Source: Anaerolineae bacterium
GTDB taxonomy: Bacteria > Chloroflexota > Anaerolineae > B4-G1 > SLSP01
Assembly: GCA_026991395.1 (NCBI GenBank)
Contig: JALXBP010000142.1
Span: 1 to 35,061 of the forward strand
Length of the DNA stretch: 35,061 nucleotides
Reading direction: 5' to 3'
This document shows positions 5,646-35,061 of the stretch, piece after piece (position 1 is the first letter of the stretch; every line of letters begins with the position of its first letter). The notes beneath the pieces are model-generated. The model was given only the letters and a program-made list of their open reading frames with translations. It did not search any database and was not told the DNA's origin. A program made the position numbers and the translations under genes.

Positions 5646-7449
5646 GCGGACGGGCTGGCTGGGGCTGTTGGTCGGCCTCAGCGTCGGCCTGGTGCTCTCG
5701 CTGGCGCTGTTGGCCGGTGTCTTCAGTACCTGGCGGCTGCGGGCGATGGACCTGCTCTATCGTCCGTTGGACGCTCATTCGCCGGTCGCCATCATCGCCA
5801 TCGATGACGAGACGCTGATACGCTACGGGCGTGTGGGCAGTTGGTCGCGCAAACGCTACGCCGATCTCATCGAGGCGCTACGGTCGTGGAATGCGCGGGT
5901 CATCGTCATCGATGTGCTCCTGGCCGAGCGCGGTGCAGGCGATGATGCGCTGGAGGCCGTCCTGGATGATGATGTCATCCTGGCGACGGCGGGTGTCGGC
6001 GTCCCCCGCCCGGAAGCGGGGGTGATCCAATTCCCGATGCTTCTCAAACCCGTCGTCGAGGGCGGGCGCGTAGGGCACGTGGATATTCTGCCCGATGCCG
6101 ACGGCGTTTTACGTCGTCTGCCGCTCTGGGTGCAGGGCGAAAACGATCCCCCTGTGCCAGCGATGGCGTGGCAAGCGCTCTCGGCCTACCTCGGCGTTCC
6201 CATTCCCGACAAGCCTTCGACACGACCCTTCCGTTGGGCTGGGCGCGAGATGCCCGTCGATCGGCATGGCCAGGTCATCGTCCGCTACCTGGGGCCCTCC
6301 GGCTCGGTACCCATCTACTCCTTCGGCGACGTGATGGACGGCAACCTCCCCGCCGGAGCGCTCGACGGGCGCATCGTCTTCATCGGCGTAACGGCGGTGG
6401 GGATGCCGGATGTCTATTCGGTGCCTATCGGCGGGAGAATGAACGGCGTGGAGTTGCACGCGCAGATGGCTGCGGCGCTCCTCGCCGGACAGATGCTCGA
6501 GCCGCCCTCGGTGTGGCTTTCCATCGTGCTGACCATCGTGATGGCTTCGCTGGCAGGATGGTCGATTGCCCGTCTCCGTCCTTCCATCTCCGCCGGGATC
6601 GTCATCTTCTCGGCGCTTCTCTTGCTGCGTGTGGCGACCGTGGCCTTTGCCCACGGCTACCTGGTCGATTACCTCTTCGCCCTGCTGGGGATGCTTGGGG
6701 CCTACGTGGGGGTCGGCTTGTGGGCGCTGGAGCAGGAACGCTGGAAGCGGGCCAGCATCACCAGCCTCTTCGCCGGGCGAGCCTCGCCCCAGGTCGTGGC
6801 CTACCTGCAGGAACTGTCGCGACGCAATGCCCTCACCTCTGCGGAAACGCGCTTCATCGTCGCCCTCTTTGCCGATGTGCGCGGTTACACTGGCTTCACC
6901 GAACGCGAAGACCCGCGGCGTGTCCAGAGCGTGATCAATGCCTACCTTGCTGCCTTCGCCGAGGCCGTCATCGATGCCGAGGGCGTGGTCACGAAGTACG
7001 TCGGCGACCGCGTCGTGGCTCTCTTCAATGCCCCTTACCACGTCGAGGACCCGGTCGAGCGGGCTTTGGAGGCCGCCATCGACGGCCTGCAGCGACTGGA
7101 GCGGCTGTGGGAGGACCCCGATATGCCCCGTTTGTCGATGGGCGTCGGGGTCAATGCCGGTATGGCCATTGTCGGGCTGGTCGGTTCGCCGAAGCGGTAC
7201 GATTACGATGCGCTGGGCGATGTCGTGAACGTGGCTTCGCGGCTGTGCGACCTGGCTCCCGCGGGGGAGGTGTACGTTACCGAGGCCATCGTCGCCTTGG
7301 CCGACGAGCGGTGGGAGGTAGAGATGATCGGCTCGCTCGTCCTCAAGGGGCGACGCGAGCCTGTCGTAACCTATCGTCTGAAAGCAGCCTTGGCCCTCGA
7401 TGAAGATGAAGAAGAGGAGCCGATCTTGTCCACGATGGGGGAACGATGA
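5596..7449 (+). CDS. CHASE2-domain class III adenylate cyclase
   Basis: The 617-residue membrane cyclase has a first helix (~20-45), an extracellular CHASE2 sensor (~48-300; AMDLLYRPL, AIIAIDDETLIRYG, GRIVFIGVTA), three further helices (~307-380) and a cytoplasmic cyclase domain (~418-597). Metal-binding Asp427 (FADVRG) and Asp471 (YVGDRV) are present. Lys467 and Asp538 (YDYDALGD) match the adenine-specifying pair, and Asn545 and Arg549 match the transition-state residues. This points to cAMP from ATP rather than cGMP. The ATG at 5596 follows GGAGAG by 5 bases and overlaps the FecR gene by 50 bases. A GTG at 5593 is an alternative. The tight overlap implies co-translation with the FecR protein. 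Confidence 0.93.
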   Translation: MQRGTAPAWHSPSRADKRTGWLGLLVGLSVGLVLSLALLAGVFSTWRLRAMDLLYRPLDAHSPVAIIAIDDETLIRYGRVGSWSRKRYADLIEALRSWNARVIVIDVLLAERGAGDDALEAVLDDDVILATAGVGVPRPEAGVIQFPMLLKPVVEGGRVGHVDILPDADGVLRRLPLWVQGENDPPVPAMAWQALSAYLGVPIPDKPSTRPFRWAGREMPVDRHGQVIVRYLGPSGSVPIYSFGDVMDGNLPAGALDGRIVFIGVTAVGMPDVYSVPIGGRMNGVELHAQMAAALLAGQMLEPPSVWLSIVLTIVMASLAGWSIARLRPSISAGIVIFSALLLLRVATVAFAHGYLVDYLFALLGMLGAYVGVGLWALEQERWKRASITSLFAGRASPQVVAYLQELSRRNALTSAETRFIVALFADVRGYTGFTEREDPRRVQSVINAYLAAFAEAVIDAEGVVTKYVGDRVVALFNAPYHVEDPVERALEAAIDGLQRLERLWEDPDMPRLSMGVGVNAGMAIVGLVGSPKRYDYDALGDVVNVASRLCDLAPAGEVYVTEAIVALADERWEVEMIGSLVLKGRREPVVTYRLKAALALDEDEEEEPILSTMGER

Positions 7450-8566: not shown

Positions 8567-8591
8567 CAATTCTGTGGATAAAGGAGGTACG

Positions 8592-11500
8592 ATGAGCACG
8601 TCATCCTCTCCCGCCTTCGAGCCGGTGAGCACGCAGACCGATTTCATCCGCCAGGAGCACGAAATCCTCGACTTCTGGAAGCGCAGCCGCGCCTTCGAAA
8701 AACTGCGCCAACTGCGCAAGGGCGGCCCGCACTGGTCGTTCATCGATGGCCCCATCACCGCCAACAACCCGATGGGCGTCCATCACGCCTGGGGCCGCTC
8801 CTACAAGGACCTCTGGCATCGCTTCTGGGCGATGCGCGGCTACGAGGCGCGCTACCAGAACGGCTTCGATTGCCAGGGCCTCTGGGTGGAGGTCGAGGTG
8901 GAGAAGGCCAAGGGCTTCACCTCCAAGCGGGAGATCGAAGCCTACGGGCTGGCCAACTTCGTCCTCGACTGCAAGGCGCGGGTGCTGACCTACGCCGCCC
9001 GCCAGACGGAGCAATCGATCCGCCTCGGCTACTGGATGGACTGGAACGACCCCGACCTCCTGCGCGAGCTGGCCGAGCGCCTCAAGGAGGACCCGCAGCA
9101 GACGATCACCATCGATGGGCCGATGGGGCCGGTTACCGACAGCGTCGAGCAGATCGTCGGACGGCTGGGGCTGCCCGAACTGGGCGGCTCCTACTTCACC
9201 TTCTCCAACGAGAACAACTACACCATCTGGACCTTCCTCAAGAAGGTCTGGGAACGTGGCTGGCTCTACAAGGGCACCGACGTGATGCCGTGGTGCCCGC
9301 GCTGCGCGACCGGCATCAGCCAGCACGAGATCGTAACCGACGGTTACCGCGAACTGACGCACGAGGCGGTCATCGTTCGCTTCCCGCTGCGCGGACGCGA
9401 CCGCGAGGCGCTCCTCGTCTGGACGACGACGCCCTGGACGCTGACGAGCAACGTCGCCGCCGCCGTCGGGGCCGATCTGGACTATGTCAAGGTCAAGGCG
9501 GCGGATGGCTGGACCTACTACCTGGCCGAGGCGACCGCGCCGCGCGTCCTCAAGGGCAAGTACGAAGTCGTCGAGCGCCTCAAGGGCGAGGCGATGGTCG
9601 GCTGGAGCTACGACGGCCCCTTCGACGAACTCCCCCGCATCCACGAGATGGGCGTGCCGGAGGCGCACCGCGTCCTCCCCTGGGAGGAGGTCGGCGAGGA
9701 GGAGGGGACGGGCATCGTCCACATCGCGCCCGGCTGCGGTGCGGAGGATTTCCAGCTCGGCAAGGAGCACGGCCTGCCCGCGCCTGCCCCCCTGGACGAC
9801 GAGGGGCATTACATCGACGGCTTCGGCTGGCTGACGGGGCGCTACGTCCACGACGTGGCGCACGACATCTTCCACAACCTGGAGGAGAAGGGCATCCTCT
9901 ACCGCGTCGATCCCTACACCCACCGCTACCCCGTCTGCTGGCGCTGCGGGACGCCGCTCGTCTTCCGTCTGGTCGATGAGTGGTTCATCAGCATGGGGCC
10001 GACCTACGACAAGCCGCGCGAGGAACTGACGGAAGCAGAGAAGGAAGCGAGCCTCCGCTACCAGATTATGGACGTGGTGGACGAGATCAAGTGGATTCCA
10101 GAGTTCGGCTACGACCGCGAGATGGACTGGCTGCGCAACATGCACGACTGGATGATCTCCAAGAAGCGCTACTGGGGGCTGGCGCTGCCCATCTGGGTCT
10201 GCGAAAACCCCTCCTGCGGCCATCACGAGGTCATCGGCGACGAGCACGAGTTGCGCGAACGCGCCGTCGAGGGGTGGGAGACCTTCGAGGGACATACGCC
10301 CCATCGCCCCTACGTGGACGCCGTCAAGCTGCGCTGCCCCAAGTGCGGCGGGCTGATGAGCCGCATCCCCGACGTAGGCAACCCCTGGCTCGATGCGGGC
10401 ATCGTCACCTACTCGACGCTCCAGTACCGCACGAACCGTGCCTACTGGGAGCAGTGGTTCCCCGCCGACTGGATCAGCGAATCCTTCCCCGGCCAGTTCC
10501 GCAACTGGTTCTACAGCCTCATCACGATGAGCACGGTGATGGAACGCCGCCCGCCGACGAAGATCGTCCAGGGCTACTCCACGCTCTGGGCCGAGGATGG
10601 CCGCCCGATGCACAAATCGTGGGGCAACGCCATCTGGTTCGACGACGCGGCGGAGAAGATGGGCGTGGATACGATGCGCTGGCTCTACCTCAACCAGCCG
10701 CTCGACCAGAACCTCCTCTTCGGCTACACCCGCGCCGATGAGACGCGGCGGCGCTTCCTCATCCCGCTGTGGAACGCCTACGCCTTCTTCGTCAACTACG
10801 CCCGCATCGACGGCTGGCTGCCGCCGGAGCCGCTGCGCCGTCATCCCAGCCGCCGCGAGGAGGGCTTCCCCCGTCTCGATGCGCCCTGGACGGCGGAGGC
10901 CGCACCCACCGAACTGGATCGCTGGATCGTCGCCCGCCTCAAGGAGACGATCGAGGCGATGACGGCGGGGCTGGAAAGCTACGTGCCGGTGCGCGTCGCC
11001 CAGCCTGCCGAAAGCTTCCTCGATGATCTGAGCAACTGGTACATCCGCCGCAGCCGTCGCCGCTTCTGGTCGGCCAAGGGCGAGGAGAACGCCGCCGACA
11101 AGGAGGCCGCCTACCAGACACTCTACACCGTCCTGACGACCTTCGTCAAGCTCCTCGCGCCGACCATCCCCTTCATCACCGAGGCGATCTACCAGAACCT
11201 GGTGCGCGCCGTCGTCCCCGATGCGCCGGAGAGCGTCCACCACTGCCTCTGGCCGGAGGCCGCGCCGCTCACCGAGGCGGAGCGCGATCTGCTGGAGGCG
11301 ATGGCCGCCGTCCGTCTGGCGGCCAGGCTGGGGCACTCGGTGCGGGCCGGGCACAATCTGAAGGTGCGCCAGCCGCTGGCGAAGGCGCTCATCGCCACCG
11401 ACCCGCGCCATCGGCGCGAGCTGGAGCAACTCCTCGGTCTGCTGGCCGACGAGCTAAACGTCAAGGCGGTCGAGTTCGTCGAGGAGGAGGGCGATCTGGT

Positions 11501-12035
11501 AACCTACCGCCTCCTGCCGCTCAACCGTGTGCTGGGGCCGAAGTTCGGGCGTCGCTTCCCGCTGGTGCGCAAGGCGCTGGCCGGGCTGGACGCCGCCGAG
11601 GCCGTCGCCCGTCTCCAGGCGGGCGAGCCGCTCACGCTCACCCTGGCCGACGGCAGCGAAGCCGTCCTCTCGCCGGAGGAGGTGCTCGTCCAGAGCCAGC
11701 CGCGCGAGGGCTACGGTGTCGCCGGTGAGGGCGGGATCGTCGTCGCACTCGATACGCAGCTCACGCCCGACCTGCGGCAGGAGGGGCTGGCGCGGGAGGT
11801 CATCCGCCGCGTGCAGGCGCTGCGCAAGGAGGCCGACTACGAGCTGACCGACCGCATCGTCGTCCGCCTGCGCGTGGAGGGCGACCTTGCCGAAGCCGTT
11901 GCCCGCTTCCGCGACCTCATCGCCGCCGAGACGCTGGCCGAGGCCGTCGAGGAGGTCGCCGAGCCGCAAGGCGATCGCCGCCTGGAGGAGCAGATCGCCG
12001 GGACGCCGGTCGTCATCGCCGTCGAGCGGCGATGA
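8592..12035 (+). CDS. ileS: Isoleucyl-tRNA synthetase with GxHH signature motif
   Basis: This 1147-residue class I synthetase charges tRNA-Ile in the cytoplasm. The usual HxGH signature is replaced by Gly62-Val-His-His65 (NNPMGVHHAWGR, codons 8775-8786), a first/third residue swap. The KMSKS loop reads PMHKSWGN, keeping the second Lys (about residue 675). The CP1 editing domain is intact, with WTTTPWTLTSN and GTGIVHIAPGCGAEDF, so proofreading of valine should work. Zinc-type Cys pairs occur in CPRCATG, CWRCG and CPKCGG. A C-terminal anticodon-binding region follows (LDRWIVARL, LSNWYIRRSRRRFW). The ATG at 8592 follows a perfect AAGGAGGT. A GTG at 8574 is less likely. Expression is controlled by the Ile T-box. 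Confidence 0.97.
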   Translation: MSTSSSPAFEPVSTQTDFIRQEHEILDFWKRSRAFEKLRQLRKGGPHWSFIDGPITANNPMGVHHAWGRSYKDLWHRFWAMRGYEARYQNGFDCQGLWVEVEVEKAKGFTSKREIEAYGLANFVLDCKARVLTYAARQTEQSIRLGYWMDWNDPDLLRELAERLKEDPQQTITIDGPMGPVTDSVEQIVGRLGLPELGGSYFTFSNENNYTIWTFLKKVWERGWLYKGTDVMPWCPRCATGISQHEIVTDGYRELTHEAVIVRFPLRGRDREALLVWTTTPWTLTSNVAAAVGADLDYVKVKAADGWTYYLAEATAPRVLKGKYEVVERLKGEAMVGWSYDGPFDELPRIHEMGVPEAHRVLPWEEVGEEEGTGIVHIAPGCGAEDFQLGKEHGLPAPAPLDDEGHYIDGFGWLTGRYVHDVAHDIFHNLEEKGILYRVDPYTHRYPVCWRCGTPLVFRLVDEWFISMGPTYDKPREELTEAEKEASLRYQIMDVVDEIKWIPEFGYDREMDWLRNMHDWMISKKRYWGLALPIWVCENPSCGHHEVIGDEHELRERAVEGWETFEGHTPHRPYVDAVKLRCPKCGGLMSRIPDVGNPWLDAGIVTYSTLQYRTNRAYWEQWFPADWISESFPGQFRNWFYSLITMSTVMERRPPTKIVQGYSTLWAEDGRPMHKSWGNAIWFDDAAEKMGVDTMRWLYLNQPLDQNLLFGYTRADETRRRFLIPLWNAYAFFVNYARIDGWLPPEPLRRHPSRREEGFPRLDAPWTAEAAPTELDRWIVARLKETIEAMTAGLESYVPVRVAQPAESFLDDLSNWYIRRSRRRFWSAKGEENAADKEAAYQTLYTVLTTFVKLLAPTIPFITEAIYQNLVRAVVPDAPESVHHCLWPEAAPLTEAERDLLEAMAAVRLAARLGHSVRAGHNLKVRQPLAKALIATDPRHRRELEQLLGLLADELNVKAVEFVEEEGDLVTYRLLPLNRVLGPKFGRRFPLVRKALAGLDAAEAVARLQAGEPLTLTLADGSEAVLSPEEVLVQSQPREGYGVAGEGGIVVALDTQLTPDLRQEGLAREVIRRVQALRKEADYELTDRIVVRLRVEGDLAEAVARFRDLIAAETLAEAVEEVAEPQGDRRLEEQIAGTPVVIAVERR

Positions 12036-25996: not shown

Positions 25997-27166
25997 ATGA
26001 CGACGCTCTACGATGCGTGGACGCGAATCCCCAAGCGGCGGCGGATGCTCTTCTCTCTGCTGGGCGGAACGCTGCTCTTGCTCATCTGGCTGCTGTGGCG
26101 CACGCGGAGCGTCCTCTACCCCTACCTCTTCGGCCTTGGCCTGGCCTACATCCTCAGCCCGATGGTCAACGCCCTGGAGCGCGGCGGGCGCTGGCTGGCC
26201 CGTCGGCGCGGCCTGGGCTTCCTGCGCCGCGCCGCGCGGCCTGTTGCCGTGGTGCTCACCTACATCTTCTTCGTCTCGCTGCTCGTTGGCTTCTTCTCCC
26301 TCGTCGTCCCCTTGCTGGGAGAGCAGGCCCGCACGCTGTGGGAGGAGGCTCCCGCGCTCTGGGAACGGGTCTCGCAGTGGGGGGACAGCATCGTCCAGCA
26401 GTACCGCCTCCTTCCGCCGCAGGTACAGGCGCAGATCGAGAAGTCGATGGGCGAGCTTTCGGCGCAGGTGGGGGAGATCATCCGCCAGGCGCTGGAGGGC
26501 ACGGCCATCGCCATCTCCTACACCATCAGCCTCCTGTTGAGCATCTTCATCGTGCCCTTCTGGAGCTTCTACGTCCTCAAGGATGCGCCGCAACTGCGCC
26601 GCTCGCTGCTCAACAGCCTGCCGCCGGCAGCCCGTGAGGATGCGGTGCAGATCGCTCGCTTGCTGGACGGCGTCTTCAGCGCCTACCTGCGCGGGCAGAT
26701 CTTCCTCGGCTTGACCATCGGTATGACCTACTATGTCGGCCTGATGATGCTCGGCGTCAACTTCAGCGCCCTTCTCGGCCTCTTCGCCGGAGTCTTCGAG
26801 TTAGTGCCCAACATCGGCCCCGTCATCGGCGCGATCCCCGCCGCGCTCGTCGCCTTGACGCAGGACCCTTCGCTGGCGTTGTGGACGATCGTCTTCGCTG
26901 CCGCCGTCCAGCAGGTGGAAAATCTCTTCCTCACGCCGCGTGTCCTGGGACAGACGATCAATCTCCATCCGGCGGTAACGATGGTCGTCCTCGTCATCGG
27001 CAGTGAATTGGGCGGCATCTTCGGCCTCTTCCTCGCCCCGGTGATGACGGCGATGGCCCGCGACCTCTTCCGCTACCTCTACTTCCGCACGGCGGAGACC
27101 CCTCTTTCGCCTGCCGAGGCTCTGCGCCGCGTGTGGAGCGACAAGCCCTTTGTGCTGGAGGTGTGA
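25997..27166 (+). CDS. AI-2E family transporter (PF01594-type permease)
   Basis: The 389-residue multi-spanning protein has an N-terminal pair of helices (LLGGTLLLLIWLLWRT, YPYLFGLGLAYILSPMVN) and another helix (AVVLTYIFFVSLLVGFFSLVVPLL). A long amphipathic segment (about 110-170) is followed by the conserved core. The core contains ILPFWSFYVLKD-like IVPFWSFYVLKDA, AYLRGQIFLGLTIGMTYYVGL and the family hallmark FELVPNIGPVIGAIPAALVAL, then QQVENLFLTPRVLGQTINLHP. Members export autoinducer-2, Na+/H+ or unknown solutes, so the substrate is open. AGGAGG precedes the ATG, 8 bases after lepA, so the two are probably co-transcribed. Confidence 0.9.
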   Translation: MTTLYDAWTRIPKRRRMLFSLLGGTLLLLIWLLWRTRSVLYPYLFGLGLAYILSPMVNALERGGRWLARRRGLGFLRRAARPVAVVLTYIFFVSLLVGFFSLVVPLLGEQARTLWEEAPALWERVSQWGDSIVQQYRLLPPQVQAQIEKSMGELSAQVGEIIRQALEGTAIAISYTISLLLSIFIVPFWSFYVLKDAPQLRRSLLNSLPPAAREDAVQIARLLDGVFSAYLRGQIFLGLTIGMTYYVGLMMLGVNFSALLGLFAGVFELVPNIGPVIGAIPAALVALTQDPSLALWTIVFAAAVQQVENLFLTPRVLGQTINLHPAVTMVVLVIGSELGGIFGLFLAPVMTAMARDLFRYLYFRTAETPLSPAEALRRVWSDKPFVLEV

Positions 27167-27168
27167 TG

Positions 27169-28020
27169 ATGGAATTCCTCGATCGCATTCTCTGCGGCGA
27201 CTGTGAAGAAGTACTGAAGGAGATGCCGGATAACACCGTCGATCTGATCTTCACCTCGCCTCCCTACGCGGACCAGCGGAAGAAGACCTACGGGGGGATT
27301 CGTCCGGATGCCTACGTCGAATGGTTCCTCCCCAAAGCCGAGCAATTCTTCCGCGTTTTGAAGCCGACGGGCACCTTCATTCTGAATATCAAAGAACGAG
27401 TCGTGAATGGCGAGCGACATACCTACGTACTCGAATTGATCCTCAAATTACGCGAGCAAGGGTGGCTGTGGACGGAGGAATTCATCTGGCACAAGAAGAA
27501 CTCCTACCCCGGCAAGTGGCCCAATCGCTTCCGGGATGCCTGGGAGCGCCTTCTGCAGTTCAACAAACAACGGCGCTTCAAAATGTATCAGGAGGCGGTG
27601 ATGGTGCCCATCGGTGACTGGGCGCAGGAGCGCCTGGCTCGTCTCAGCCCAACCGACTGGGTGCGGGATGAATCCAGGGTTCAAAGCGGCTTCGGCAAGA
27701 ACGTCTCCAACTGGCTGGGGCGGAAGCTCGTCTATCCCGACAATGTCATCCATATGGCCACCGAATGCTCGAATCGAGGACACAGTGCTGCCTTCCCTGT
27801 GGACCTGCCGCGTTGGTTCATCAAACTCTTCACGGCGGAAGGGGATATCGTGCTCGATCCCTTCATCGGCTCCGGCACGACGGCGGTAGCGGCCAAGGAA
27901 CTGGGACGGCATTACGTGGGCATCGATATCAATGCAGACTACTGTCGGCTGGCGGAGACGCGGCTGCAGGAAGTTCAGCCGCGTCTCTTCGATACGCTTC
28001 GTGTGGAGGAACGACGATGA
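27169..28020 (+). CDS. Type II DNA methyltransferase (beta class, probably N4-cytosine)
   Basis: The 283-residue SAM-dependent DNA methyltransferase has motif order IV, then target recognition, then I, the beta-class arrangement. The catalytic TSPPY motif (29-33) is typical of N4-cytosine enzymes. The SAM-binding DPFIGSGTT is at 230-238, followed by GRHYVGIDIN. It would protect host DNA from the adjoining endonuclease. Two ATGs occur (27166 and 27169). The second has better spacing from GGAGGTG. The reading overlaps or abuts the AI-2E stop. The stop overlaps the endonuclease ATG. G+C is visibly lower than in flanking genes, consistent with acquisition by transfer. Confidence 0.9.
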   Translation: MEFLDRILCGDCEEVLKEMPDNTVDLIFTSPPYADQRKKTYGGIRPDAYVEWFLPKAEQFFRVLKPTGTFILNIKERVVNGERHTYVLELILKLREQGWLWTEEFIWHKKNSYPGKWPNRFRDAWERLLQFNKQRRFKMYQEAVMVPIGDWAQERLARLSPTDWVRDESRVQSGFGKNVSNWLGRKLVYPDNVIHMATECSNRGHSAAFPVDLPRWFIKLFTAEGDIVLDPFIGSGTTAVAAKELGRHYVGIDINADYCRLAETRLQEVQPRLFDTLRVEERR

Positions 28021-28784
28021 AGCCGCTCGACCTGGATCGCGTCCGCACCTACGTCAACGAGCATATTGTCAATTTTCACCAGCGTCGCATTGCTTCACTG
28101 GAGCAACTTTCCCTCAACCGTCTGCTGCGCAAGAACCCCTATCTCTTTAGAGCCAAGCACATCACCACGGCGGGTGAACTCATCGGCGGCTTGTTAGATG
28201 CCTTCCTCTCGTCCTCGGAAGAAAAGCATTTCGGCGATTTTCTGGAAGGTCTGGCGATCTTCGTGGCCTCCGAAACTTGCGGGGGGTACAAATCGGCGGC
28301 TCCGGGCGTGGACCTGGAATTCGTCAATCGCGACGTCCATTACGTCGTCTCCATCAAGTCCGGGCCAAACTGGGGAAACAGTTCGCAGCACAAGCGTCTG
28401 GCTCAGGACCTGCGCAACGCCGTCATTCGGCTGAAACAGGCCGGCACATCGTTGAAAGTACAGCCTGTACTCGGCATCTGCTACGGGAAGACCCGCACGT
28501 CTTACACGCGAGACGGCTACTTGAAAGTAGTTGGGCAGAATTTCTGGTACTTGATCAGTGAGAACAAGCAGCTTTACACGGAGATCATCGATCCCATCGG
28601 CTATCGCGCACGCGAGCACAACGATGCCTTTCTGTCCGCACGCGCGAAGGTCGAGAACCGGTTCACGCAGGCATTCATCGAGCGTTTCTGTCGGGCCGAC
28701 GGCGCGATCGATTGGGAGGCGCTGGTGAGGTTCAACAGCGGAAACTACGATATGGACCGCTTTTCCCACTCCCTTTCCGCGTGA
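28017..28784 (+). CDS. PmeII/EcoO109I-like type II restriction endonuclease
   Basis: The 255-residue protein matches the PmeII/EcoO109I-type endonuclease family as I know it. The N-terminus is LDLDRVRTYVNEHIVNFHQRRIASL, with NPYLFRAKHITTAGELIGGLLDAFLSSSEE and FGDFLEGLAIFVA following. The PD-(D/E)xK-type core is GVDLEF (Asp99) and YVVSIKSGPNWGNSSQ (Lys114). The usual acidic residue two before the Lys is Ser112, as I recall for this branch, so another acid (Glu77 or Glu101) may complete the site. ATGA overlap with the methyltransferase couples the pair. Recognition sequence is not readable from the protein. EcoO109I itself cuts RGGNCCY. In 28081-28140, 34 of 60 bases are G or C, against 51 of 60 in 30121-30180. 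Confidence 0.85.
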   Translation: MKPLDLDRVRTYVNEHIVNFHQRRIASLEQLSLNRLLRKNPYLFRAKHITTAGELIGGLLDAFLSSSEEKHFGDFLEGLAIFVASETCGGYKSAAPGVDLEFVNRDVHYVVSIKSGPNWGNSSQHKRLAQDLRNAVIRLKQAGTSLKVQPVLGICYGKTRTSYTRDGYLKVVGQNFWYLISENKQLYTEIIDPIGYRAREHNDAFLSARAKVENRFTQAFIERFCRADGAIDWEALVRFNSGNYDMDRFSHSLSA

Positions 28785-31861: not shown

Positions 31862-31889
31862 TTGCCCTTCTTCCGCCCCGTGCTATACT
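31862..31889 (+). promoter_or_regulatory. Promoter of the cobalamin-riboswitch transcript
   Basis: TTGCCC (31862-31867), 16 bases and TATACT (31884-31889) with an upstream TGC place transcription start near 31896, just before the aptamer. Confidence 0.7.
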
Positions 31890-31919
31890 GACGCCGCTCG
31901 TTGACATTCCCCATAGCCA

Positions 31920-32045
31920 CGGTCGAGGTGCCCTCTCCCCTGCGGGAGATGGCTCAAAGCGAGGAAGTCCGGTGCAAGTCCGGCGCTGTCCCGCAACGGT
32001 AACCCTTCGGGGAAGCCCGACACTCCGCCTCGGTCGGTGCGCATC
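31920..32045 (+). promoter_or_regulatory. Cobalamin riboswitch aptamer
   Basis: The conserved cobalamin-riboswitch string is readable in order: GAGGTGCC near the 5' end, GGAAGTCCGGTGCAAGTCC (about 31960-31981), GCTGTCCCGCAACGGTAA (about 31985-32002), GGGGAAGCCCGACA and CCGCCTCGGT as B12-box region. The usual CTGTAA appears as CGGTAA. It lies on the transcript of the two secreted proteins at 32184 and 34418 and is followed by an intrinsic terminator, so B12 is expected to switch the operon off by termination. Ends of the aptamer are approximate. Confidence 0.92.
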
Positions 32046-32071
32046 ATCCTTCGCGGAAAGGAGGTGGCACG

Positions 32072-32092
32072 ATGACAGGCGTCGAGCGCTGA
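32072..32092 (+). CDS. Possible six-codon leader peptide (MTGVER)
   Basis: A strong ribosome site (AAAGGAGGTGG, about 32057-32067) precedes ATG ACA GGC GTC GAG CGC TGA, a complete six-codon frame between the aptamer and the terminator, ending 4 bases before the terminator stem. The strength and placement of the ribosome site suggest it may be translated. Alternatively, the GGAGG is part of the expression platform. Nothing supports a peptide function. Confidence 0.35.
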   Translation: MTGVER

Positions 32093-32096
32093 AGCC

Positions 32097-32133
32097 GACC
32101 CTCTCCACGTGTCGCGGAGAGGGTCTTCTTTTT
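32097..32133 (+). terminator. Riboswitch expression-platform terminator
   Basis: GACCCTCTCC (32097-32106) pairs perfectly with GGAGAGGGTC (32116-32125) and is followed by TTCTTTTT. The octamer CCCTCTCC also occurs inside the aptamer (31931-31938), so the 3' arm (32116-32123) could have two alternative partners. Confidence 0.92.
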
Positions 32134-32183
32134 GGCGTAGAGCACGATGAGCCGGTGAGTTTTCGAGCACGAAAGGAGCGATG

Positions 32184-34418
32184 ATGAAGAGACGATGGCG
32201 TGCCGGATTTCTGGCACTTGCGGCAGCGATGTCGCTGCTTGCCCTTTTCTGGATGTTGACCTCGGCGGGCGCGGTGCGGGCGGCGATTCCTTCGCCCAAT
32301 GCTCCCGACCACACGGCGGCGATCACGCGGGCGATCGCCTACCTGCGCACGCAGCAGTTGGCCGACGGCAGCCTGCCGGGTTTCGGGGGGACGCCCGATC
32401 CCTTCACGACGATCAAGGGGGTGATCGGCCTGGCCGCCGCCGGAGCGCCCTCCACGGCGCTGCAGACGGGCGGCGGGGCGACGATGCTGACCTACCTGGC
32501 CGACGAGGCGATCACCTACACGCACGACGTGAGCGGGCTTCTCCTCCCCGGACGTGCGGGGATGTTGGCCGTGGCGGTGGTTGCTGCCGATGCCGACCCC
32601 TTCGATTTCGGCGGGATGAGCCTCATCGATGAACTGTCGGCGACCTACCACACGGCGACAGGGGCCTACAGCACAACCGCCTCCGCCGGGTGGAGCACGG
32701 GGGCGGCGAGTGCGGTCAACCAGGCGTGGGCGATGCTGGGACTGAGCGCCGCCGAGCAGCCGGTGCCGCTCAGCGCTACGCTCTACCTGCTCGCGCTGCA
32801 GGAAAGCGACGGCGGCTGGGGATACGCGCCCGGCTCCGGCGGGGACGTGGACACGACGGCGTTGGTCGTGCAGGCCTTGCTCGCAGGCGGGCAGGTTACG
32901 CCGACCCATCCGGCGCTCGTGGCGGCGGAGCGGTTCTTCCGCAGCGAGCAGGACGAGGCCGGTTCGTGGGGCTACAGGTGGGGTGGCACGTACACGCCCA
33001 GCGCCGACTCGACCGCCGCCGTCATCCAGGCGCTGGTGGCGATGGGCTACACACCGGCGACCTACGCCTGGGAAACGGCGCAGGGAGGTGATCCCCACAC
33101 GGCGCTGGCCGCGATGCAGGGCGCGGATGGGGCTTTCGTCAATGCACTGGGCACGGCGCACGCGCTGGCCGGTCTGGCCGAAGCGCCGCTGCCGGTCTTC
33201 GGCGTGCGGGCGCGGGCGCGGCAGGCGCTTGGCCGCCTCGCGGCGGTGCAGTCGAGCGATGGCGGATGGCCGGGCTGGTCGGGGAGCAGCGACGCCGGGA
33301 CGACAGCGGATGCGGTCCTCGCCTTCGCCGCCGCCGGTTTCGATCCGCACACGGTGAGCGCGGGCGGCCCCTCGGCGATGGCCTACCTGTCGGCGACGGC
33401 GGCCTCCTACGCCGCCGGAGGGCCTGATGCGGCGGGCAAGTTGGCGATGGCCGTCGCCGCGGCGGGCGATGATCCGCACGTCTTCGGCGGCGTCGATCTG
33501 GTCTCGATCATCACGGCGAGCTACAGCGAAAGCGGCACCGTGGGCGGCTACGGCACGCTGACCAACACCTGGCATCAGGCGCTGGCCATCCTCGGACTGC
33601 GGGCGGCGGGGGAGCCGGTTCCGATAACGGCGACGCGCACGCTCAGTTCGCTGCAGCAGGGCGATGGCGGCTGGAAGTACGATCTTTCGTCGGCCTGGTG
33701 GAACGGGACGACGCCCGACAACACGGCCATCGCGGTCGAGGCGCTCATCGCCGCCGGGGTGCCGCGCGAGGCGGGGGTGATTACCCGCGCGGTGGCTTTC
33801 CTCGAGGCGCGGCGCACGGCGACGGGCGACTGGGGGAATCCCAACAGCACCGCCTACGCCATCCAGGCCCTCCTCGCCGCCGGGGAGCCGCTGGACGAGG
33901 CCCCTTGGGTCGTGCACGAGCGCTGGCCGATCGCGCTGCTGGAGCGCTACCAGAAGCCGGAGGGGACGTTCTACTACGGGGGATGGAGCGGCGAGGCGGA
34001 CAACGACTTCGCCCTGCGGCAGGCGATTCCGGCGTTGACGGGCGCGCCTTTCCCGCTCGCGCCGACGGTGCTGCGCCCCTGGCACGCGCCTTCCCCCCTT
34101 CCGGACTCCGATCGCTTCGTCGTCGGCCCGGCGCGTTACGCGCTGGAGGGGCGGCGGCTGACCCTCGGCTACGGCAGCGACCTCAACCAGAACGCGGTGG
34201 TGACGATCAGTTGGCGCCCGTCGGGCGTCACTGCGTGGAGCGAGCCGGTAACGGTCGAGCATCGCGCGCCCGTCTCGATCTCGGTCGGTTATCCCGTCTC
34301 GGCGGGCGGCGCGGAGATTCGCATCGTCGTCGCCGATCCCGACGGGGTGCAGGGTGAAGCGGAGCAGCGCCTCCGGGTGTACGGGGTGATGCTTCCGCTG
34401 GTGATGCGGGGGCCGTGA
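32184..34418 (+). CDS. Secreted alpha/alpha-toroid (prenyltransferase/squalene-cyclase repeat) protein, putative corrinoid-binding
   Basis: The 744-residue protein has a signal peptide (to about residue 34). About eight toroid repeats follow, each with a QW-like turn: AYLRTQQLADGSLPG, LLALQESDGGWGY, FRSEQDEAGSWGY, AAVQSSDGGWPGW, SSLQQGDGGWKYD, EARRTATGDWGNP. DxTAxxxxAL helices alternate. The true cyclase acid motif DxDD is absent (nearest DVDTT, from residue 221). A C-terminal beta domain (about 640-735) ends in VYGVMLPLVMRGP. Repeats of this kind form the alpha6/alpha6 barrel of intrinsic factor and transcobalamin. With the B12 riboswitch upstream and a DUF4430-type gene overlapping downstream (TGATG), a role in B12 capture is inferred. 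The second of two ATGs (32181/32184) has better spacing from AAAGGAG. Confidence 0.85.
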   Translation: MKRRWRAGFLALAAAMSLLALFWMLTSAGAVRAAIPSPNAPDHTAAITRAIAYLRTQQLADGSLPGFGGTPDPFTTIKGVIGLAAAGAPSTALQTGGGATMLTYLADEAITYTHDVSGLLLPGRAGMLAVAVVAADADPFDFGGMSLIDELSATYHTATGAYSTTASAGWSTGAASAVNQAWAMLGLSAAEQPVPLSATLYLLALQESDGGWGYAPGSGGDVDTTALVVQALLAGGQVTPTHPALVAAERFFRSEQDEAGSWGYRWGGTYTPSADSTAAVIQALVAMGYTPATYAWETAQGGDPHTALAAMQGADGAFVNALGTAHALAGLAEAPLPVFGVRARARQALGRLAAVQSSDGGWPGWSGSSDAGTTADAVLAFAAAGFDPHTVSAGGPSAMAYLSATAASYAAGGPDAAGKLAMAVAAAGDDPHVFGGVDLVSIITASYSESGTVGGYGTLTNTWHQALAILGLRAAGEPVPITATRTLSSLQQGDGGWKYDLSSAWWNGTTPDNTAIAVEALIAAGVPREAGVITRAVAFLEARRTATGDWGNPNSTAYAIQALLAAGEPLDEAPWVVHERWPIALLERYQKPEGTFYYGGWSGEADNDFALRQAIPALTGAPFPLAPTVLRPWHAPSPLPDSDRFVVGPARYALEGRRLTLGYGSDLNQNAVVTISWRPSGVTAWSEPVTVEHRAPVSISVGYPVSAGGAEIRIVVADPDGVQGEAEQRLRVYGVMLPLVMRGP

Positions 34419-35061
34419 TGCGCGGGGTGGCACGTGTCGCGGCGGTCGTCCTGCTCGTCGTCGGGGCGGGGATGGTGCTGCTGAGGGGCGGGGAGCCTGC
34501 CGCAGCGGAGGAGGCGACGCACCACGCGGGGCTGGTCGTCGATTTCGGCGGCGGGACGGTCATCACGCGCTGCGTTGGCTTCGAGGAGACGACGATCAGC
34601 GGCTACGAGTTGCTCCAGCGTGCCGGGCTTGCGCTGGAGGTGGCGGTGGGCGGTCCCGGCGCGGCCATCTGCGCCATCGAGGGGACGGGGTGCCCGTCCG
34701 ACGATTGCTTCTGTCAGTTTCCGCCTCTCTACTGGTCCTACTGGCACCTCGTCGATGGGCAGTGGCAGTACGCCGACACGGGGGCCGAGGGGTACGCGGT
34801 GAGCGACGGGGCGGTCGATGGATGGCTGTGGGGCGATGCCTCGGCCCCGCCGCCGGTCATCGCCTTCGAGGCGATCTGCGCCCCTGCGCCGACCTCGACG
34901 CCGACGGCGACGCCCGTACCACCGACCTCGACACCGACGCCGCTTCCGCCGACGGCGACGCCCGTACCGCCGACCTCGACGCCGACCTCGCCTCCGCCGA
35001 CGGCGACGCCCGTGGTGCCGACCTCGACGCCGACCCCGCCGCCGCCGCCGGCGACGCCCGT
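34418..35061 (+). CDS. Secreted DUF4430-type protein with Pro/Thr repeat tail, putative corrinoid-binding (partial, runs off window)
   Basis: At least 214 residues are encoded before the window ends. There is a signal peptide (VAAVVLLVVGAGMVLL, to about residue 30). A compact domain (about 35-153) follows with LVVDFGGGTVITRCV, ISGYELLQRAGL, a Cys-rich CPSDDCFCQ, YWSYWHLVDGQWQY and VDGWLWGD. The pattern matches DUF4430, the family of the C-terminal beta domain of intrinsic factor and transcobalamin. Paired Cys residues suggest disulfides. A Pro/Thr-rich repeat tail (from residue 158) would span the cell wall, so a membrane or wall anchor probably follows. The ATG overlaps the stop of the toroid gene, so both share the B12-riboswitch transcript. 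Confidence 0.85.
   Translation, partial: MRGVARVAAVVLLVVGAGMVLLRGGEPAAAEEATHHAGLVVDFGGGTVITRCVGFEETTISGYELLQRAGLALEVAVGGPGAAICAIEGTGCPSDDCFCQFPPLYWSYWHLVDGQWQYADTGAEGYAVSDGAVDGWLWGDASAPPPVIAFEAICAPAPTSTPTATPVPPTSTPTPLPPTATPVPPTSTPTSPPPTATPVVPTSTPTPPPPPATP
34889..35061 (+). repeat. 48-bp coding tandem repeat (PTSTPT...PPTATPV)
   Basis: Units begin at 34889 (11 codons), 34922, 34970 and 35018. The full units are 16 codons long and encode PTSTPT plus variable residues plus PPTATPV. The array continues past the window end. It is the wall-spanning linker of the DUF4430-type protein. Confidence 0.9.

Follow-up and report, generated by a model that had tools for sequence, protein, structure and literature searches.

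What ligand do the two proteins predicted to be secreted from the right-hand end of this contig handle, and how would that ligand reach the cell? The window analyzed here is the whole of contig C142 (35,061 bases), from a 2.46 Mb Anaerolineae genome assembled in 153 contigs (in what follows, C numbers denote contigs of this genome, and L numbers denote loci of its relatives). Toward its right edge, a cobalamin riboswitch precedes two overlapping genes, the first of which encodes a tandem toroid protein and the second a β-grasp protein. The original prediction, made from the letters of the window, described this pair as a split bacterial counterpart of intrinsic factor and transcobalamin, the B12 carriers of animals. 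Our answer builds on the riboswitch, the fold of the β domain, the tandem toroids, the operon of the relatives with its transporter and sometimes PduO genes, and the natural domain fusions, each of which we regard as shown. On this basis, we hold with considerable confidence that the locus encodes a riboswitch-controlled, secreted toroid and β-grasp system that captures corrinoid outside the cell for an energy-coupling factor (ECF) importer, following the steps set out below.

Riboswitch and Likely Expression Platform

The region upstream of the two genes contains a full-length match to the cobalamin riboswitch family RF00174 (54.4 bits compared to a gathering threshold of 31.5, E = 5.2e-11, model positions 1–189), which is the sole cobalamin riboswitch found in this genome. 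The intrinsic terminator that follows is likely to be its expression platform: the terminator hairpin has TTCTTTTT directly 3′ of it, and the corresponding 55-nucleotide stretch has a folding energy of −30.8 kcal mol–1 (z = −4.9). A simple terminator scan of the window reported no terminator, probably as the loop is too long for the limit of the scan. Of 47 loci examined (the present locus and the named relatives described below), 46 have a terminator-like hairpin 3′ of the riboswitch core, compared to 21 of 235 mononucleotide-shuffled controls. Ahead of the aptamer, a promoter-like site agrees with the consensus at 9 of 12 positions, with one such site found and 0.1 expected in shuffles. The cobalamin aptamer, the terminator and the two overlapping genes, both with hydrophobic N-termini, are present where the original prediction had placed them, as is the promoter-like site.

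Fold of the β-Grasp Protein

The evidence for the identity of the second protein comes from its predicted structure. An AlphaFold2 model of the β domain, based on a 72-sequence alignment (A4), has a predicted local distance difference test score (pLDDT) of 95 and a predicted template modeling score (pTM) of 0.88, with the secondary structure elements E4–11, E17–24, H31–37, E42–46, E51–56, E74–81, E84–87, E96–98 and E102–108. As modeled, this is a transcobalamin-type β-grasp domain with a hairpin inserted after the helix, in keeping with the transcobalamin-like clade of the SLBB proteins (PMC1796856). A structure comparison had been proposed as a check on the original prediction, and in a Foldseek search of the PDB the closest structures to our model (ranks 1–19) are indeed the β domains of transcobalamin, haptocorrin and intrinsic factor, together with the bacterial protein RUMGNA_00854 (E = 3e-4 to 0.02, template modeling (TM) scores of 0.58–0.67, probability 1.00, sequence identity 8–18%), with the next match at E = 0.14. 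Searches of the PDB by sequence, with either the single sequence or a 20-sequence profile, returned no transcobalamin match, and the link to transcobalamin therefore rests on predicted structure. The same distinction applies to the assignment of this protein as DUF4430-type, which holds at the level of the predicted fold but not at that of the Pfam sequence model (PF14478): the latter has no match in the β protein or anywhere in the source genome, and matches none of 20 relatives in one comparison and 2 of 72 in another, with a best E value of 0.029.

The residues that are invariant in A4 (C54, C61, C66, C68, W75, Y77, W85, G91, G100, G104 and W107) appear, for the most part, to be located at or close to the insert hairpin, the strand that follows it and the connector, through which transcobalamin makes contact with B12 (PMC1796856). 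Beyond the domain, the gene stops at the contig end within a Pro/Thr-rich tail, and any anchor or downstream genes would fall outside the window. The relatives nevertheless support the predicted surface anchoring, as 66 of 85 relatives of the β protein have a C-terminal membrane helix. A contig joining the right edge was sought with the last 121 bases, yielding low-complexity Pro/Thr matches only, and C27 was rejected as a continuation, since it leads into an unrelated open frame that is L,D-transpeptidase-like by eye.

A Tandem Toroid Protein

The first protein is, by self-alignment, an in-register tandem duplication of two toroids of ~290 amino acids each, with residues 50–339 aligning to residues 348–626 at 34% identity (E = 6e-39). 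We count about six repeats per toroid by eye, and thus about twelve in the whole protein, rather than the roughly eight repeats of a single toroid that had been predicted. Pfam places squalene-hopene-cyclase-type (SQHop_cyclase) α/α repeats above the cutoff in this protein (E = 5e-16 and 2e-11), while the match to the intrinsic factor/transcobalamin family Cobalamin_bind is below threshold (E = 0.041; PF01122, 13.3 bits compared to a cutoff of 25). Weak matches to this eukaryotic cobalamin-binding family are also seen in 14 of the 74 rows (best E = 1.6e-4) of A3, a MAFFT alignment of toroid and β-domain slices that consists mostly of toroid rows and contains 8 β-domain rows, with no misplaced rows.

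A Pfam search of the C-terminal ~106 residues (640–745) gave no match. The very C-terminus carries an LPLV-type ending (34389–34415) that exemplifies a recurrent feature of these proteins: an LPxx ending is found in 22 of 72 related toroid proteins, compared to 3 of 867 other open reading frames (ORFs), and is perhaps a sorting signal of an undescribed type.

A Conserved Operon in Chloroflexota

We compared the locus with two sets of relatives, namely 20 regions from the same class as the source organism, and 80 named Chloroflexota loci obtained by scanning species genomes with the β-domain alignment alone, which overlap with the first set and are not independent of it. The named loci span Anaerolineae, Thermoflexia, Ardenticatenia, Herpetosiphon, Thermomicrobium and others. 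A count of 127 of 199 genomes from an earlier scan is too high for this family, as many of the weak matches behind it cover the low-complexity tail only.

The usual gene order in the relatives is riboswitch, toroid gene(s), β gene(s) and ECF importer. A cobalamin riboswitch adjoins the pair in 18 regions of the first set, with the remaining 2 cut inside the toroid gene, and in at least 52 of the 61 named loci that have upstream room (42 with the conserved riboswitch core, and a further 10 in which Rfam detected a riboswitch, out of 13 examined from the 19 others). Among the 54 named loci with downstream room, 50 have ECF genes within 6.5 kb downstream, and in 34 of these 54 all three of EcfS, EcfT and EcfA are present. 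Representative downstream genes match the ECF S component (PF12822, 4.8e-12), CbiQ (1.7e-14), the ECF ATPase (1.4e-101) and the PduO-type cobalamin adenosyltransferase (9.6e-61), the last of which is found in 6 of the 80 named loci. With riboswitch, ECF and adenosyltransferase genes conserved beside the pair in this way, the link to B12 that had been drawn from the window is supported by its relatives. Many operons also encode a second, divergent β-grasp protein.

We note in addition that L048 has a tandem pair of cobalamin riboswitches (6307–6450 and 6599–6767, minus strand) ahead of a single operon, and that a short second β-grasp protein in L046 (9799–10380) has a terminal PEP-CTERM sorting motif, unlike the membrane-helix tails of most such paralogues.

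Natural Fusions of the Two Domains

The two domain types are also found within single chains, with 12 β-toroid fusions, 2 β-toroid-toroid fusions and 1 toroid-β fusion among the named loci. The last of these, L102 ("Chloroflexi bacterium 44-23"), has the domain order of the animal carriers followed by a C-terminal membrane helix, and its gene lies directly 3′ of a 65-bit cobalamin riboswitch and 5′ of EcfS, EcfT and EcfA. An α6/α6 toroid followed by a β domain in one chain is thus absent from our own locus, and is found among the relatives in L102 only. The AlphaFold model of L102 is mostly above 90 in the toroid and at 82–94 in the β domain, with an overall pTM of 0.63, and its six best Foldseek matches in the PDB are all transcobalamin, with 430–464 aligned columns spanning both domains. 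The model therefore supports the identity of both L102 domains as transcobalamin domain types, and the fusions in both orders, together with the Foldseek matches, favor the domain pairing of intrinsic factor and transcobalamin that the original prediction had suggested.

Further architectures were observed alongside these. L159 (9737–12355) combines a β-grasp domain and EcfS in a single 873-codon open frame, and may join the extracellular binder directly to the S component. Proteins of L130 (937–3700) and L087 (3047–4576) have three predicted tandem toroid domains each.

Proposed Mechanism and Alternative Explanations

In the mechanism that we propose, scarce adenosylcobalamin would lead the riboswitch to permit read-through of the terminator, such that both genes are expressed, and plentiful adenosylcobalamin would lead the terminator to form, as suggested by the anatomy of the region. 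The toroid and β proteins would both be exported, with a Pro/Thr stalk and a terminal membrane helix, of the kind seen in the relatives, holding the β protein, and through it probably the toroid protein as well, at the cell. The toroid(s) and the β-grasp domain, the two kinds of domain between which transcobalamin and intrinsic factor hold B12, would then most likely jointly capture corrinoids outside the membrane, and the captured corrinoid would be handed to the ECF importer (EcfS, EcfT and EcfA) and, once imported, be adenosylated by a PduO-type enzyme. We regard it as very likely that corrinoids are captured outside the cell and passed on to an ECF importer. We infer B12 binding, complex formation and hand-over to the importer, and a two-subunit clamp with B12 held between toroid and β domain is plausible. 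We would give about even chances to the broader proposition that these operons constitute a Chloroflexota-wide class of ECF importer with a dedicated extracellular module, in the form of a two-chain B12 clamp (tandem toroid and β-grasp lid) that would amount to a separable transcobalamin or intrinsic factor. As for the source organism, CbiC was not found in its genome, and de novo corrinoid synthesis is therefore unlikely; the genome has several B12-binding domains and one PduO, and its homologues of the operon-type EcfS and EcfT (described below) are further points in favor of the proposal.

A number of observations weigh against this proposal. No ECF gene was seen beside the pair in the source genome, where the contig ends in the β gene, and the EcfT and EcfS homologues of the operon type (47% and 44–46% identity, respectively) are located on C91 and C100 (C91:15011–15991 and C100:4449–4943), where their neighbors, judged by eye, are an ORF resembling an esterase and one resembling uvrA, respectively. 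For this genome, the transporter past the right edge is a prediction, with ECF genes present in 50 of the 54 named loci that have downstream room. EcfS, in turn, could not be assigned to a known B12 S component; its best NCBIfam match is a weak one to a folate family (E = 0.004). With respect to the clamp, the L102 model deviates from transcobalamin by a root-mean-square deviation of ~18 Å, as the domains match singly but their relative placement differs, and the model thus lends no support to a shared pocket. Moreover, the ratio of toroids to β domains is 1:1 in 33 loci, 1:2 in 21, 2:1 in 9 and 2:2 in 8, with 3:2 also occurring and 2:1 at our own locus, and such varying numbers speak against a fixed one-to-one clamp.

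Both the independent variation in domain numbers and the lack of transcobalamin domain packing in the L102 model would fit a scenario in which the toroid protein binds corrinoid alone, and the β-grasp protein is a partner that provides docking or anchoring at the ECF importer or the cell surface, with no B12 sandwich being formed; the second, divergent β-grasp protein of many operons points the same way. We consider this scenario unlikely but worth serious attention, given that toroid/β fusions in 15 relatives, in both orders, are what would be expected of joint action, and that the invariant β-domain residues appear to map largely to, or close to, the parts of the fold with which transcobalamin contacts B12 (PMC1796856). 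The weak folate-family match of the S component raises, in addition, the question of whether the ligand is a corrinoid at all, or rather cobalt ions or another cofactor, with the CbiQ-like gene encoding a cobalt importer. EcfT does fall within the CbiQ family, and Burroughs et al. (PMC1796856) allow for other metabolites in archaea. This explanation is nevertheless improbable in our view, considering that Pfam places the S component in a family of the vitamin type (ECF_trnsprt), that some operons include PduO (6 of the 80 named loci), that the riboswitch is the rule, and that the fold of the β domain is peculiar to B12 carriers; in the source genome, moreover, which lacks CbiC, there would be little reason to import cobalt in order to make corrinoids.

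Finally, Pfam reports SQHop_cyclase domains above the cutoff, and cyclases rank with the closest structural matches to the toroid of L102, which could be taken to indicate that the toroid protein is an exported enzyme without connection to B12, either a terpene cyclase or one resembling prenyltransferases. However, 0 of 89 related toroid domains have the DxDD signature of class II cyclases, on which ground we reject the terpene cyclase assignment, and an enzyme of this general kind is very improbable when the signal-peptide-like N-terminus, the riboswitch and ECF neighbors that point to B12, and the transcobalamin structures that are the best fold matches of the fused L102 protein are also taken into account.

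Features of the Window

The features of the locus are summarized in Table 1.

Table 1. Positions of the riboswitch, gene and domain features at the right-hand end of the window
Feature	Position	Strand	Basis and remarks
Promoter-like site	31862–31889	+	TTGCCC, 16 nt, TATACT; TG ahead of second hexamer; consensus match only
Cobalamin riboswitch aptamer	31909–32046	+	RF00174
Intrinsic terminator	32097–32133	+	10-bp stem (hairpin 32097–32125) and T-run
Ribosome-binding site cgaaaggagc	32170–32179	+	Sequence; precedes ATG 32181
Predicted secreted tandem-toroid protein, 745 aa	32181–34418	+	ORF; hydrophobic N-terminus, ~residues 1–34
Toroid 1, residues 49–338	32325–33194	+	Self-alignment, domain boundaries
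Toroid 2, residues 347–625	33219–34055	+	Self-alignment, domain boundaries
C-terminal part of toroid protein, ending MLPLVMRGP	34056–34415	+	No Pfam match
Predicted secreted β-grasp protein	34418–35061	+	ORF; start overlaps preceding stop (TGATG); truncated by contig end; hydrophobic N-terminus by eye
Transcobalamin-type β-grasp (SLBB/DUF4430-like) domain, invariant Cys	34517–34864	+	Alignment, AlphaFold2, Foldseek
Pro/Thr-rich tail, probably a stalk	34883–35061	+	Sequence; tails of relatives lead to C-terminal membrane helix

Elsewhere on the contig, a T-box leader (RF00230, 8302–8550, plus strand), which at 94 bits is slightly above its cutoff of 93, lies upstream of a gene (8574–12035, plus strand) that by eye encodes an isoleucyl-tRNA synthetase. 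A type II restriction-modification pair is also encoded on the plus strand, with an N6/N4 DNA methylase at 27133–28020 (PF01555, 6e-45), and an EcoO109I-type restriction endonuclease (PF14511, 1e-68) in an overlapping gene at 28014–28784.

Comparison with Known Systems

ECF importers are generally described with membrane-embedded S components, and not with soluble binding proteins. If the proposed capture system is correct, its dedicated extracellular binder would extend this usual scheme by adding a capture step outside the cell, would account for B12 acquisition in many Chloroflexota, including uncultured ones, and would assign a function to gene families presently named for cyclases or unknown proteins. 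Single chains such as that of L102 would then be the bacterial counterpart in animal domain order, and, with both split and fused forms at hand, the way in which the animal B12 carriers evolved could be put to the test.

Among bacterial B12 systems, Bacteroides BtuG (PMC6143338) is likewise a surface protein that catches B12 for an importer, but is a β-propeller lipoprotein of unrelated fold, with BtuB as its partner. The B12 transporter ECF-CbrT (PMC5997447) shares with the Chloroflexota operons an ECF module with an S component and, in L. delbrueckii, a nearby PduO gene, but was characterized without an added extracellular binding protein, whereas the Chloroflexota operons encode one or more. 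The best named families for the two proteins are SCO2321_fam and SCO2322_fam (NCBIfam NF053823 and NF040672), with scores of 127.2 and 34.5 bits that are far under the curated cutoffs of 300 and 85, and the model names give no function. The animal carriers transcobalamin, intrinsic factor and haptocorrin contain the same two domain types, with β-domain TM scores of about 0.58–0.67, and L102 has their domain order; our own locus differs from them in having two chains, two toroids and a conserved Cys set, and the relatives differ in having a membrane anchor, and a bacterial ECF importer in place of the receptors CD320 and cubilin.

A literature search, with subscription journals outside its coverage, found no experimental study of a bacterial toroid/β-grasp protein of this type. 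A riboswitch-regulated B12 transporter has been noted in Herpetosiphon aurantiacus (Sun et al. 2013, PMC3766115), where we find a toroid gene and a β gene behind a riboswitch (L147). The closest precedent is the analysis of Burroughs et al. 2007 (PMC1796856), who described bacterial proteins that combine a transcobalamin-like β-grasp (SLBB) domain with an α/α toroid in both fusion orders, second β-grasp paralogues, CbiO/CbiQ neighbors and hosts without B12 synthesis genes, mainly in low-GC Gram-positives and some archaea, and who predicted B12 scavenging and a transfer to animals; neither riboswitches nor Chloroflexota are mentioned. The present systems resemble those in their β-grasp domain with hairpin insert and predicted secretion, a toroid in either order, the second paralogue, the CbiO/CbiQ-type ABC genes, and B12 scavenging predicted for hosts that lack its synthesis, but differ in that in Chloroflexota the two domains are mostly carried by separate chains, the toroid may be doubled or tripled, and the operon is under a riboswitch, which provides independent evidence on the ligand that was unused in the 2007 prediction. 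The riboswitch link, the split chains, the tandem-toroid forms and the Chloroflexota-wide spread are thus new with respect to that work.

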